Shown here: in pieces, positions 12,649 to 17,826 of the stretch
Layout: each line of letters starts with the position of its first letter
How positions within the stretch are numbered: the first letter of the stretch is position 1
Translations under genes and position numbers: made by a program
Source of the DNA: Melioribacteraceae bacterium
Lineage (GTDB): Bacteria; Bacteroidota; Ignavibacteria; Ignavibacteriales; Melioribacteraceae
Reading direction: 5' to 3'
Assembly: GCA_028282005.1 (NCBI GenBank)
Contig: JANQIV010000177.1
Location: 1-64,000 of the forward strand
Length of the DNA stretch: 64,000 nt
The notes under the pieces: model-generated
The model's database searches: none
Seen by the model: only the letters and a program-made list of their open reading frames with translations
Told to the model about the DNA's origin: nothing

Positions 12649-12667
12649 ATGAAAAATTTTTATTTTT

Positions 12668-13513
12668 TTGATTTTAGTAGCGCTAATTTCTATTGCTGTC
12701 CTATTCTTTTTGTTTAACCCCCAATTATTAACTGATATTTGGTTATGGCTTGTTGGTTTAATCGGACCAATAGTAGCGTTAGTTAAAAAAGGTTTTGACT
12801 CAGTATCAGATTTATTTAAAAGTGCTAATAATGAAGAGAATAATTCAGAAAATGATTCAAAACCAAAAGTGCCGAAGAGTGATTCACAAAATGAATCAGC
12901 ACAATTAACAACTGAAATGGAAGAGAAAGAATCAAAGTACAAAATGAAAGTTGAAAACCTTGAAGTAGAGATTAAACAACTTCAGGCAAAGATTGATAAA
13001 GAAAACCAAGTTGATTCTTACGATGGTACAACCATAACAGTACTACGGTACTTTGATGATGACGAAACAACATTAGGTTTGCTTTTCTGGGAAGATGAAT
13101 TTTTTTGCTATACTTTGGAAGACACATTCCGGGAGGTTAAAATTCCAGGCAAAACCAGAATACCAAAAGGCACTTATGAACTAGAATTTTATAAACATCT
13201 AACGCCTTTAACTAAAAAATACAGAGGCAGATTTAGCTGGTTTAAATATCATATTCATATAAAAGACGTAAAAAACTTCACATACATTTACATTCACTGC
13301 GGTAATAACCATAAACATACCAAAGGGTGTTTGCTAATTGCTGATGGAATTTATTCGGTAAACAAATCCCACACTATAAGAGACTCTGAAAAAGCTTACA
13401 CAGTATTCTACTCAAAAATTGAAGAACTTCTAAATAGTAACAAAAAAGTCCGAATCAAAATTTTCGACGAAGATTGGTTAAATAAAAGTAATTTAAAAAA
13501 TAGGTTAACATAA
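12668..13513 (+). CDS. Membrane-anchored DUF5675 protein, start probably displaced by a T-run indel
   Basis: 281 residues as read. One or two N-terminal hydrophobic helices (ILVALISIAVLFFLF, LWLVGLIGPIVALV) are followed by a charged linker and a coiled coil (MEEKESKYKMKVENLEVEIKQ, about 90-115). The C-terminal DUF5675 domain starts near residue 118: TVLRYFDDDETTLGLLFW, FCYTLED, TRIPKGTYEL, YIHCGNNHKHTKGCLLI. DUF5675 is common beside phage lysis enzymes; its activity is not established. The only in-frame start is this TTG without a ribosome site. An ATG at 12649 (MKNFYF...) joins this frame if one T is removed from the 7-T run at 12663-12669. Two bases separate it from the muramidase gene. Confidence 0.75.
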   Translation: MILVALISIAVLFFLFNPQLLTDIWLWLVGLIGPIVALVKKGFDSVSDLFKSANNEENNSENDSKPKVPKSDSQNESAQLTTEMEEKESKYKMKVENLEVEIKQLQAKIDKENQVDSYDGTTITVLRYFDDDETTLGLLFWEDEFFCYTLEDTFREVKIPGKTRIPKGTYELEFYKHLTPLTKKYRGRFSWFKYHIHIKDVKNFTYIYIHCGNNHKHTKGCLLIADGIYSVNKSHTIRDSEKAYTVFYSKIEELLNSNKKVRIKIFDEDWLNKSNLKNRLT

Positions 13514-13515
13514 AA

Positions 13516-15228
13516 ATGAATAACTTAAAAAAATGGATCAAGTATTGGGCGATTGGAGTAATTGCTTTTGTGCTATTCACGGTTATTGGATATATAGTTA
13601 AATGGGAAGCACAAAATTATCTTACCCTCACTTATATAATAGTAGCGGCTTTTTCATTTTGGTTGATAAATTTCTGGTATCAAAAATTTGAAAAGGAAGG
13701 GAAAGCAGAAGAGACCAAAAGGAATCCATATAGAAAAATGTTTTTCTCAGCCGTAAACACATTGTCAATTCTATTTTTGGTTATTGGTGTTTTCGGTGCA
13801 TTTATGATCATTGCTGATAACGGAAATATTTACAACGCAATTGCTCTGATAATTGCCTTATTATGGTGTGGTATCTTCATTCGCTACTTTATTTGGGCAG
13901 TCTATTTTTATAACATCAATTACGGTTTAACAGACAAAGATTGGGAAAAGATTCTTGCAGCAAGAGATAAAAAAGCAAAAGGGCTGCACGTACCGGATTT
14001 GGCTTTAAATGCTCCAACGAGCAATCCATTTAAAGACCAAACCTTTGGTTTACCAAAAGGGACTGTAAGAGGTATGATTGCTTTTACTCTACTTTTTGCT
14101 GCAATTGCACTTACAGTTGTTAGTATGGGAATGGATACAAATATTGATGAAAGCTCATTTTTCTGGGATCACTTCGAATTTGTTAAGACAGCATTTCTAA
14201 TGATGATTGCATTTTATTTTGGTGATAGTTCATTAAAGTATTTATCTGAAAGATGGAATAAACCAGGTTCCAGAAGAAAAAAAGATCCTAAAATACCAGA
14301 TGTTGGAAGTGGGAACCAAAATGGTAATCCACCAAACGGAGGCAATGGAAACGGTGGTAGCTCGGACCAAACTCCAGCTGAAGCGGAAGAGAATGTGCCG
14401 CAAAACCAAGAGACACATAACCCCAAAGGAATATTAGGTGCTGTAAATTTAAGTGATTTGAAAAAAACTATTAGTGGAGTTTTCGAAACTACCGAAGACG
14501 AAGTCAATGAAAACTATGCCCATGTTAGAGATAAACAATTCAATAAATTTATTACAGACGAGTACTTTGAAATTGCACTAGAAAGAATAAAAACAGAGAC
14601 GGGATTTAATATTCAATTAGCAACGTTAAAAGCAATTACCGAAGTTGAATCTAACGGTACTGGTTTCCTAAATAGTGGCAAAGCGAAGATTCTTTTTGAG
14701 GGACATAAATTCTGGAAGTGGTTAGAGAAATTTAACTTAAATCCGGAAGATTTTGTAAAGGGTAATGAAGATATTATTTACAAGAAGTGGACTAAGGATT
14801 ACTATATTGGTAAGGAAGGTGAGTATTCAAGACTAAACCGTGCAATGGAAATACACAAGCAGGCAGCTATATATTCTGCATCTTGGGGTAAGTTCCAAGT
14901 GTTAGGTGAAAACTTGGAACACATAATCAAAGGACGTTTACAAAGTAATTCAAATGAAAAAGAAGAAGAAATAAAGGAAAAATATTATTACGAAGATTTT
15001 GAAGATTTTGCAGTGAAACAACATGAATCAGAATTTTATCATTTATTGGATTTCATAGAATTTATAAAAAACAAAAAAGCTCATGGCACAGTTTTAATTG
15101 AATACATTGACGGCAATAAACCAGAAAAATTTGATTGGGACAGCTTTGCCTATGGGTATAACGGCCCAAGATATAAAGAAAATAAATATGTTGAAAAACT
15201 AAAAAGTGCATACGAATATTATGTATAG
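13516..15228 (+). CDS. Polytopic membrane protein with C-terminal N-acetylmuramidase domain
   Basis: 570 residues. The N-terminal half has about six membrane segments (around residues 8-28, 38-56, 75-98, 100-125, 185-210, 222-240), including QTFGLPKGTVRGMIAFTLLFA. A Gly/Asn/Pro-rich linker (about 262-300) follows, then a muramidase domain (PF11860 type, as in phage endolysins) from about 345: LKAITEVESNGTGFL, ILFEGHKFW, YSASWGKFQVLG, FAYGYNGPRYKENKYVEKL. The catalytic glutamate is probably E376 or E378. Such domains cleave the MurNAc-GlcNAc bond of peptidoglycan. Fusion to a multi-span anchor is unlike phage endolysins. Co-transcribed with DUF5675 upstream and overlapping a DUF4230 lipoprotein downstream. 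Confidence 0.8.
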   Translation: MNNLKKWIKYWAIGVIAFVLFTVIGYIVKWEAQNYLTLTYIIVAAFSFWLINFWYQKFEKEGKAEETKRNPYRKMFFSAVNTLSILFLVIGVFGAFMIIADNGNIYNAIALIIALLWCGIFIRYFIWAVYFYNINYGLTDKDWEKILAARDKKAKGLHVPDLALNAPTSNPFKDQTFGLPKGTVRGMIAFTLLFAAIALTVVSMGMDTNIDESSFFWDHFEFVKTAFLMMIAFYFGDSSLKYLSERWNKPGSRRKKDPKIPDVGSGNQNGNPPNGGNGNGGSSDQTPAEAEENVPQNQETHNPKGILGAVNLSDLKKTISGVFETTEDEVNENYAHVRDKQFNKFITDEYFEIALERIKTETGFNIQLATLKAITEVESNGTGFLNSGKAKILFEGHKFWKWLEKFNLNPEDFVKGNEDIIYKKWTKDYYIGKEGEYSRLNRAMEIHKQAAIYSASWGKFQVLGENLEHIIKGRLQSNSNEKEEEIKEKYYYEDFEDFAVKQHESEFYHLLDFIEFIKNKKAHGTVLIEYIDGNKPEKFDWDSFAYGYNGPRYKENKYVEKLKSAYEYYV

Positions 15229-15829
15229 ATTATTAAGCATACTGTTTCTTTTATCCGTTTTTCTTTTTACTTCATGCGGTAACAGACGCGGATTGGTTGT
15301 GGGTAAAATTCAGAAAGCTTCAAAGTTGGCAACGACTGAATTTACTATTGATAAACTAGTTCACGGCACCAAAACTAAAAAAATATTTTGGTTCATAAAA
15401 CTAAATGAAGCAAGAATTATTGTTTATTCTCAAGCAATAATTAAAACCGGAATTGATTTAAAGAAACTGAAAAAAGATGATATCAAAATTGATGAAGATG
15501 AAAACTCAATTGAGATAACTCTGCCTCCAATAGAGGTAATAAATTTCTCATACCCACCTGACAAATTTAGAATCGACTCAGCACTATCAGATCCGGATAA
15601 ATTCTTAAATGAGATTAATTTGTATGATCAGGAAAAGTACTTTCGGGATGCTGAAATAGATATTAGAAATAACCTTGAATACATTGGCATTGTTGAAACA
15701 ACACAAGAGAAAACAAGAGCATTGCTTTATGGTTTGCTACTAAATCTTGGATTTGAAGAAATCCATATTGGTTTTAAGAACAATGAATTAATTGTTGATA
15801 AAATTACTATTGAAAAGGAAGACGGATGA
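15221..15829 (+). CDS. DUF4230 domain lipoprotein
   Basis: 202 residues. The ATG at 15221 gives a clear lipoprotein signal (MYRLLSILFLLSVFLFTSCG, lipobox T-S-C at residue 19), so it was preferred to a GTG 15 bases upstream. The mature part matches DUF4230: KIQKASKLATTEFTIDKLV, then IVYSQAIIKTGIDLKKL and the beta-rich ENSIEITLPPIEVINF. It is attached to a membrane by its lipid anchor. It overlaps the muramidase gene by 8 bases and the next DUF4230 gene by 4, so production is coupled. The function of DUF4230 is unknown. Confidence 0.8.
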   Translation: MYRLLSILFLLSVFLFTSCGNRRGLVVGKIQKASKLATTEFTIDKLVHGTKTKKIFWFIKLNEARIIVYSQAIIKTGIDLKKLKKDDIKIDEDENSIEITLPPIEVINFSYPPDKFRIDSALSDPDKFLNEINLYDQEKYFRDAEIDIRNNLEYIGIVETTQEKTRALLYGLLLNLGFEEIHIGFKNNELIVDKITIEKEDG

Positions 15830-17826
15830 TTTTTAGCTTATTAACAAAATATTGGCGCACAATATTTGACGCACTGGTTATCGTTGCCATTATCACATTG
15901 GTCTTTCTAATAAATCCCTTTGATATTTTTGGAAGCGGATTAAAACTAAATGATACTGCAAATATGGTTTCTAATGTCCGTTCAATTGGGCAACTTGTTA
16001 CTGCCGAATATTACGGAGAAGTAATTTCATCCCTCGATGAATCAAAATTATATATAATTGAAAAAGATAAGCTAAATAAAAAGGCCCAAGATTATTACCG
16101 CAAATTAAAAAAGGAAGTAAGTAATTTATATATTGAAAGTATTGTCTCTACTTATGGTGAGCAAGATTTTAGAAAACGAACTCGGTCAGTGCGAAACGAA
16201 TTGAATGATGCTAGAGAAGAATTTTCTCAAAAATATGAAAAAATAAAAAAGGGTAGTTTAGAAGATTATGTAATAATGTTTTGGGCAATAAAATTAAGGG
16301 ATGAAAGAATAGATTTTGAAGATTATAACGATGATAGGGATGATATTATTGAAGAGCAATTGGAAAATTTATTTGATTATGTGTTAACTAATTACAGGAT
16401 TTACGTCGCTAATCAGGAAGATTTTAATGAATTCTTAAACCAAGGATTTGAGAAAAATATAAGCTTCTCAAAATTTTACAATAATTTTAGCAAAAATATT
16501 AAAAATGAAAAAGATAAAGAATTAGCCTTAATTGGAAGAGGAAGTGTAAAAGCCGGATTCGATTTTGGAAAGTTAGACGAACGCAGATTTAATTACGATA
16601 GAGAAACGAAAACTGTCCATTTATTTGGAATCACGTCAAAAATTCTTGATGTCAACATTAATCCTTGGTTCATTCCCGAAAAGAGAATTCCCGGATTTGA
16701 TATTATTGTTGCAGAGGATGTCAACTTTGAAGATGCAAAAAGAGTAAAGAAACACTGTGTGTCGAAGCTCGAGACAAATGCAATAAATGCCGGAATAATT
16801 GATAGGGCAAGGGAATATGGTGAAGAAGCAATCAAAGAGTTTTTTTCTTTGTTAACCAATGATGAAATCAAAGCTGTCAAATTTCATGCAGATGAATTAA
16901 ATGTTGTTTATGAAAAGGTTGCTAAGGATAGCTTGATATCATTTGACGAAATAAATTTAATTGATTCCACATATAAAAATTATCTTCAGTCAATTAATAA
17001 GCTAAAAGGGAATACCGGATTAAAGAAACATAAAAACTTTTTACTTTCCCGCTTTATTCAAGATTTAAAAAAGTTTGATATAGAGGTTTATTCAAACAGT
17101 AAGAAAGATGCTTACAGAAAAACAGACTTCAATTTCTTTACAAAAGAACTACAGAACATTTTACAAGATACTGTAATAACCATAAAAGAGTTAAATGAAA
17201 TAACTCATTCTTTGCGTTGGGTAATTGAAAGCGACACGACTTTTATCCCGGAAAATTATAAAACTTTTTCTCACTGGTTCGATGACAGTTTATCATTTGT
17301 AAACGAGTTTAATTTATTTATAGAAAAATTGGATGAATTTAAGTATGATACTTTAGCATTCAATTTTATATCAGAATCTGATACAATCCAAAATAATACC
17401 CAAGCCTTTAAGAATAAAATTACCAGCCTTAATAGTGAAAAAGGAAAAGAAAAAGGAAAGGTTTACAATTACATTATTACTGGGGATATAGTTACAATAA
17501 ATAGAATCGATAGTACTAAAAATTTTGATTTGGATTCTCTAAAATATAATATTAATACTGATTCTTCATTCATTGCAGAAATTGTTAAGAAAGATTCACT
17601 TGATGTTAAAGAGATTAATCTTACAGCTATTGACAGTTTAGTAAATACCAATAGGCAAATAGATGAATTAAATTCATATTCTTATTATCTGGAAAAATTG
17701 AATGAAAAATATCATAGAGATTGGATTCTTAGGGCTAGTGAAAATGTTAAAAAGAATATTTTAAGTAAAGAGAATTTTAGCAATTTTAGAGATAATATTG
17801 CTAATCGTTTTAAAAATATTTTTTAG
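15826..17826 (+). CDS. Large membrane-anchored DUF4230-type protein
   Basis: 666 residues with one N-terminal membrane helix (IFDALVIVAIITLVFLI, about 13-29). The DUF4230-like core is split: MVSNVRSIGQLVTAEYYGEV at about 47-66 and, after a charged helical insertion, GRGSVKAGFDFGKLDERRFNYD near 240 and a C-terminal helix pair (NAGIIDRAREYGEEAIKEFF). The remaining 300 residues are Lys/Glu/Asp/Ser-rich and helical with no known domain. It ends the four-gene locus and starts within the stop of the DUF4230 lipoprotein gene. Two DUF4230 proteins together, one lipid-anchored and one TM-anchored, suggest an envelope-spanning pair. Confidence 0.7.
   Translation: MIFSLLTKYWRTIFDALVIVAIITLVFLINPFDIFGSGLKLNDTANMVSNVRSIGQLVTAEYYGEVISSLDESKLYIIEKDKLNKKAQDYYRKLKKEVSNLYIESIVSTYGEQDFRKRTRSVRNELNDAREEFSQKYEKIKKGSLEDYVIMFWAIKLRDERIDFEDYNDDRDDIIEEQLENLFDYVLTNYRIYVANQEDFNEFLNQGFEKNISFSKFYNNFSKNIKNEKDKELALIGRGSVKAGFDFGKLDERRFNYDRETKTVHLFGITSKILDVNINPWFIPEKRIPGFDIIVAEDVNFEDAKRVKKHCVSKLETNAINAGIIDRAREYGEEAIKEFFSLLTNDEIKAVKFHADELNVVYEKVAKDSLISFDEINLIDSTYKNYLQSINKLKGNTGLKKHKNFLLSRFIQDLKKFDIEVYSNSKKDAYRKTDFNFFTKELQNILQDTVITIKELNEITHSLRWVIESDTTFIPENYKTFSHWFDDSLSFVNEFNLFIEKLDEFKYDTLAFNFISESDTIQNNTQAFKNKITSLNSEKGKEKGKVYNYIITGDIVTINRIDSTKNFDLDSLKYNINTDSSFIAEIVKKDSLDVKEINLTAIDSLVNTNRQIDELNSYSYYLEKLNEKYHRDWILRASENVKKNILSKENFSNFRDNIANRFKNIF

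Follow-up and report, generated by a model that had tools for sequence, protein, structure and literature searches.

In phage lysis and in the type 10 secretion system (T10SS), activation of a holin gives a cytoplasmic endolysin access to the cell wall, after which the outer membrane is dealt with by spanins. Some phage lysins, SAR endolysins among them, are tethered and stay at the inner membrane until they are released. The T10SS of Serratia marcescens and of Yersinia entomophaga is encoded in a compact chromosomal operon outside any phage, which in the latter organism consists of HolA, PepB, Rz and Rz1 and causes lytic release (PMC10847048). The four-gene cassette described here has this genomic setting in common with the T10SS, as well as a wall hydrolase that lacks a signal peptide, small transmembrane (TM) protein(s), and envelope components comprising an inner-membrane-anchored protein and a lipoprotein. 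The latter two are DUF4230 proteins. This domain occurs also in Gram-positive bacteria, e.g. in S. mutans SMU_1803c, for which no hydrolase partner was reported (PMC13041782), and its presence in bacteria without an outer membrane means that it is more than a domain for spanins. No family and no open-access paper describing the four-gene set was found.

The cassette (g1 to g4, all on the forward strand) lies in a window of 64,000 nucleotides from a Melioribacteraceae bacterium, with a CpeT-family gene on one side and a convergent polyphosphate kinase gene on the other. Four tightly packed reading frames with the named domains are present where a preliminary description of the sequence had placed them, as judged by domain E-values and spacing: g1 and g2 are separated by 2 bp, g2 and g3 overlap by 8 bp (with the ATG at 15221) and g3 and g4 by 4 bp. 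The first gene, g1 (12649..13513), encodes an N-terminal TM hairpin (12668..12802) of two helices with a short K/R-poor turn and a K/R-rich stretch after helix 2, followed by a charged coiled-coil linker and a DUF5675 domain (13040..13426; residues 125-253, Pfam E=1.7e-26) with an invariant IHxGN...TxGC motif, which is predicted to be cytoplasmic. A six-TM module (13543..14235), a proline/glycine linker and a C-terminal N-acetylmuramidase domain of the PF11860 family (14617..15222; residues 368-569, Pfam E=1.9e-48) make up the product of g2 (13516..15228). The TM module is the conserved core of this protein and contains the motifs NPxxxQTFGLPxGTVRGMIAFTLL and FEFxxTAFLMMIAFYFG. The remaining two genes carry the Pfam matches to DUF4230 (E=8.1e-29 and 3e-9) and are the only DUF4230 genes found in this genome. 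Of these, g3 (15221..15829) encodes a lipoprotein whose lipobox cysteine (residue 19, codon 15275-15277) is invariant in 14 relatives, and g4 (15826..17826) a protein with a single N-terminal TM helix, a periplasmic DUF4230 domain (matched part 16480..16869) with a helical insertion after the first strand, and a long, poorly predicted helical region at the C-terminus. The AF2 model of g4 is weak (pLDDT 63) and gave no PDB match. Two helix-loop-helix motifs of the pattern Dxx[ILF]xxxE, at about residues 365-380 and 445-460 of the window's g4, resemble partial EF-hands, so that metal or calcium sensing is a possible function of this region.

Whereas the reading frames themselves were placed correctly, two starts had to be revised. 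Translation of g3 starts at the ATG at 15221. The open frame of g1 begins with a TTG at 12668, but its true start is probably the ATG at 12649. A single base in a T7 tract (12663-12669) breaks the frame that begins at this ATG, and deletion of one T yields MKNFYFLILVALISIAVLFFLFNPQLL, equal in length to MNRYLVLFFLVILIVLAVVFFTEPQLL of the relatives. The extra base could have arisen in the assembly, be a genuine frameshift or belong to a switch of variable length.

The four genes form one conserved unit. Their order g1-g2-g3-g4 was seen in the gene maps of 19 loci, nearly all of them from Cytophagales (the window, L006, L007, L029-L040 and L102-L105), and the recurrence of order and spacing at 18 loci besides the window is beyond chance. 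The occurrence of DUF5675, Muramidase and DUF4230 together, for which the preliminary description had proposed a survey of genomes, is thereby strongly borne out. At a further locus (L069) the genes follow as hydrolase-g1-g2-g3 and the contig end cuts g4, and L041 is rearranged, with g3-g4 preceding a hydrolase, a TM hairpin and the TM module. A genome scan with g2 returned only two other loci, both from Cyclobacteriaceae (one MAG and Pleomorphovibrio marinus) and both with the four genes in identical order. P. marinus belongs to the Cytophagales, and of 390 genomes from this order 16 matched the g4 model and 17 the model of the g2 TM module; further carriers were found among relatives. In the phylum samples, the TM module is present in 3/395 genomes for the phylum of P. 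marinus, including P. marinus itself and one lone 141-residue protein, and the sample of the window's phylum holds a single clear carrier in 395, which is the window's own genome, and in a second genome only a 17.7-bit fragment with an internal stop. From the make-up and the disjoint membership of the two samples we infer that the window's lineage and P. marinus belong to different phyla. With this distribution, the copy in the window is probably either a transfer from Bacteroidota or shared with them. At 0.308, the GC content of the operon differs little from the slightly higher values of the flanks (0.325 and 0.329), and composition therefore gives no date for a transfer. The lone protein of 141 residues (L047:8012-8437, minus strand) has two TM helices with a GLPKGSVRSMLAL...GFYFGS motif, and is encoded 2.7 kb from a gene for a 258-residue HNH-like protein, which itself follows an AAA-type ATPase gene; to judge from this protein, the TM module may be distributed more widely than the cassette.

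Across the relatives, the hairpin of g1, the TM module of g2, g3 and g4 do not change, and it is the wall-hydrolase domain that is swapped on these membrane and envelope parts. PF11860 is fused to the TM module (the window, L006, L007, L029, L031-L034, L037, L102 and L103, the last two assigned from protein length and TM-module match only). A fusion with both PF11860 and Amidase_3 is found at L030 and L036 (Pfam) and L035 (sequence motifs), and Amidase_3 is fused without PF11860 at L040. Free hydrolases consist of Amidase_2 and SH3 at L039 and L041 (Pfam) and at L104 (the same gene by sequence), of PG_binding_1 with a sub-threshold CHAP match at L038, and of GH25 and SH3 at L069. DUF5675 is optional as well: it is missing from g1 of L038, L041 and L069, and at L105 it is the sole candidate for a wall enzyme. 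In the g3 tree, well-supported branches force the label "fused PF11860" to change at least twice. Nothing else speaks as strongly as this exchange on a constant core for the view that the core serves to handle a wall hydrolase, whichever one it may be. Replacement of one hydrolase family by another on a single core distinguishes the cassette from the T10SS, as does the anchoring of the lysin in most members, where it is fused with the six-TM protein or a TM hairpin; phage endolysins, by contrast, are free.

A sister type without DUF4230 (L066 and L068; L067 is incomplete) comprises a hairpin protein, a protein with signal peptide and coiled coil, and a fusion of TM module, PF11860 and DUF5675 in one polypeptide, i.e. 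a Rosetta-stone fusion present in L066-L068. The copy at L067 (8354-9814, minus strand) is the second TM-PF11860-DUF5675 protein in the genome of L066, and in it the conserved DUF5675 cysteine is replaced by serine. L046 resembles the sister type and carries a free PG_binding_1-PF11860 protein. Upstream of this sister-type cassette (TM module and PG_binding/muramidase) are a ThsB_TIR-like gene and a gene for a small polytopic membrane protein (L046:873-1912).

The relatives of the PF11860 domain in PDB and phage records are phage endolysins. Glu376 and Glu378 of g2 had been put forward as residues to mutate; Glu378 (codon 14647-14649) is conserved and aligns with the VE of the solved endolysins 7q4s, 7rum and 5nm7, whereas Glu376 lacks conservation among the relatives. 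In DUF5675 a histidine and a cysteine are invariant across 14 g1 proteins. One phage DUF5675 protein is annotated as a peptidoglycan hydrolase and encoded two genes away from an Rz-like spanin, and a Foldseek search against viral models found DUF5675 relatives, one of them named L,D-carboxypeptidase/transpeptidase. The fusion to PF11860, the invariant His and Cys and the phage relatives, which are encoded near lysis genes or carry annotations as wall peptidases, together suggest that DUF5675 is probably a wall enzyme too. Its motifs TRIPxGxY, IHxG, TxGC and PVxI occur in the same order as in the YkuD L,D-transpeptidase. A YkuD-like fold, which this order suggests, is not supported statistically, with an HHalign probability of 0.5% and no PDB match by Foldseek at E<=0.001.

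Membrane topology was assigned from hydropathy and charge only. Those parts of the g2 module that are predicted to lie inside (the N-terminus, loops 2-3 and 4-5 and the segment after helix 6) have 22.7, 19.7, 12.4 and 33.0 K/R per 100 residues, respectively, compared to 11.1, 7.7 and 4.0 in the predicted outside loops 1-2, 3-4 and 5-6; the contrast is weak for loops 4-5 and 1-2 and clear for the remaining segments. By the positive-inside rule both termini of the module are thus inside, and the fused hydrolase is predicted on the cytoplasmic face of the inner membrane. The charged side of the g1 hairpin points in the same sense. The peptidoglycan hydrolases of the operon, PF11860 behind six TM helices and the free versions in relatives, have no signal peptide: an N-terminal hydrophobic stretch is absent from the free enzymes, with a 12-residue maximum of at most 1.6 versus 2.4-3.5 in signal and TM controls, and present in g3, g4 and the coiled-coil proteins. 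Two independent lines, this one and the charge pattern of g2, thus predict that the membrane at first separates the enzyme from its substrate. SAR lysins differ in this respect: a single N-terminal helix holds them on the periplasmic side, whereas the cassette has a six-TM or hairpin anchor and an enzyme predicted to be cytoplasmic. Cytoplasmic hydrolases beside a polytopic membrane protein would also be expected if g2 imported wall fragments and enzymes in the manner of AmpD or LdcA recycled them. The Amidase_2 family includes AmpD, and the annotation of DUF5675 phage relatives as L,D-carboxypeptidase/transpeptidase points the same way. However, PF11860, GH25, PG_binding_1 and SH3 belong to enzymes that act on the polymeric wall, the lipoprotein and g4 are left without explanation and no recycling genes are linked, which makes this a very improbable role.

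Although the hydrolase domains PF11860, Amidase_2, Amidase_3, GH25 and CHAP are those of endolysins in phage holin-endolysin-spanin cassettes, and DUF5675 is near an Rz-like spanin in one phage, the genes described here have no phage context and their enzymes are tethered. The cassette is chromosomal and outside any prophage. Recognisable phage structural genes are absent from the neighbourhood of the loci examined, the flanks being housekeeping genes, and no viral relatives were found for the TM module in IMG/VR contigs, for g4 in the viral contigs searched, or for g2. The genes have also stayed intact over a large divergence, save for the T7 question in g1. The degenerate prophage in relatives that would have spoken against the preliminary description was thus not seen, and descent from a prophage lysis module, suggested by the phage-like hydrolase domains, is rejected as extremely improbable. 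The two-helix hairpin of g1 notwithstanding, Pfam and PHROGs gave no significant holin match for this protein, homology to known holins was likewise not found for the TM part of g2, and the DUF4230 proteins g3 and g4 matched no spanin family there; in comparison with the T10SS, DUF4230 proteins replace Rz and Rz1. A lipoprotein together with an inner-membrane anchor may nevertheless be called a spanin-like layout by analogy.

In several Cyclobacteriaceae the cassette has a stable chromosomal position with housekeeping flanks. The same divergent pair of oxidoreductase genes, for proteins of about 153 and 720 residues and of the molybdopterin type by eye, adjoins the cassette at ten loci (L029, L031-L034, L037, L006, L007, L102 and L103), of which L029, L031-L034 and L037 also have a downstream cluster in common; the site beside this pair is a fixed chromosomal site. 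Such stability could equally well go along with routine wall turnover, where the DUF4230 proteins would guide a local hydrolase for growth, gliding or the insertion of large envelope machines and no lysis would occur. The large periplasmic part of g4 and the lipoprotein g3 could position an enzyme, and some of the hydrolases have PG-binding and SH3 domains. However, the predicted cytoplasmic enzyme and the free hydrolases without signal peptides do not fit a role in remodelling, and frequent swapping of phage-type enzymes is atypical for housekeeping hydrolases. We regard such a role as unlikely.

A role in abortive infection is slightly less likely still. Here a lysin tethered inside would do no harm until a phage breaks through the membrane or sets off the platform, and the cell would then lyse early. 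The location of the lysin on the inert side of the membrane agrees with it, as does the patchy spread (17/390 Cytophagales, 3/395 in that phylum and only one clear carrier in the sample from the phylum of the window), and a sister-type cassette is about 2.3 kb from the neighbour of a ThsB_TIR gene. On the other hand, PADLOC has no family for the four proteins, the neighbours are not enriched in defence families, the position in several Cyclobacteriaceae is fixed between housekeeping genes and the cassette as a whole is absent from plasmids. For the first three of these reasons the clustering in defence islands that had been considered for the set is not supported, and a known defence system is rejected as far as known families are concerned. 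Linked cargo or trigger genes were likewise not seen at the cassette loci.

The explanation that we favour, at about an even chance, is a host-encoded device for lysis or wall opening, similar in its working to the T10SS and to the lysis cassettes of phages; the terms "undescribed system" and "cell-wall opening machine" of the preliminary description both fit it. The g1 hairpin and the six-TM module of g2 are predicted to form a platform, gate and tether in the inner membrane, which would keep phage-type wall-cutting domains at the cytoplasmic face and apart from their substrate. PF11860 and probably DUF5675 would serve as the lysins, and g4, with its inner-membrane anchor and large periplasmic part, would together with the lipoprotein g3 be the envelope-side half, which would sense and/or make the link to the outer membrane. 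The platform would give the lysin access to the wall on a trigger, which may be a collapse of the membrane potential, stress on the envelope or a signal borne by DUF4230. The wall would then be cut locally or throughout, and g3 and g4 would finish the passage through the envelope, so that cell content is released or the cell removed. Possible, and clearly less probable than this device, is an entirely new kind of envelope machine, of bacterial and not phage origin and without relation to holins and spanins, in which a DUF4230 complex and a six-TM gate retain interchangeable lysins in the cytoplasm and deliver them across the membrane on a signal.

Compared to the preliminary description, the exchangeable hydrolase, its predicted cytoplasmic side and the layout of a lysis cassette are new. 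DUF4230 and DUF5675, both families of unknown function, gain a testable role and partners in a system owned by the host, whose core stays the same as its phage-type lysins are swapped. If lysis or wall opening on command holds true, it would add a route to the release of large cargo, the removal of infected cells or the remodelling of the envelope, and this route would exist in Bacteroidota and a second phylum without known holins and spanins.
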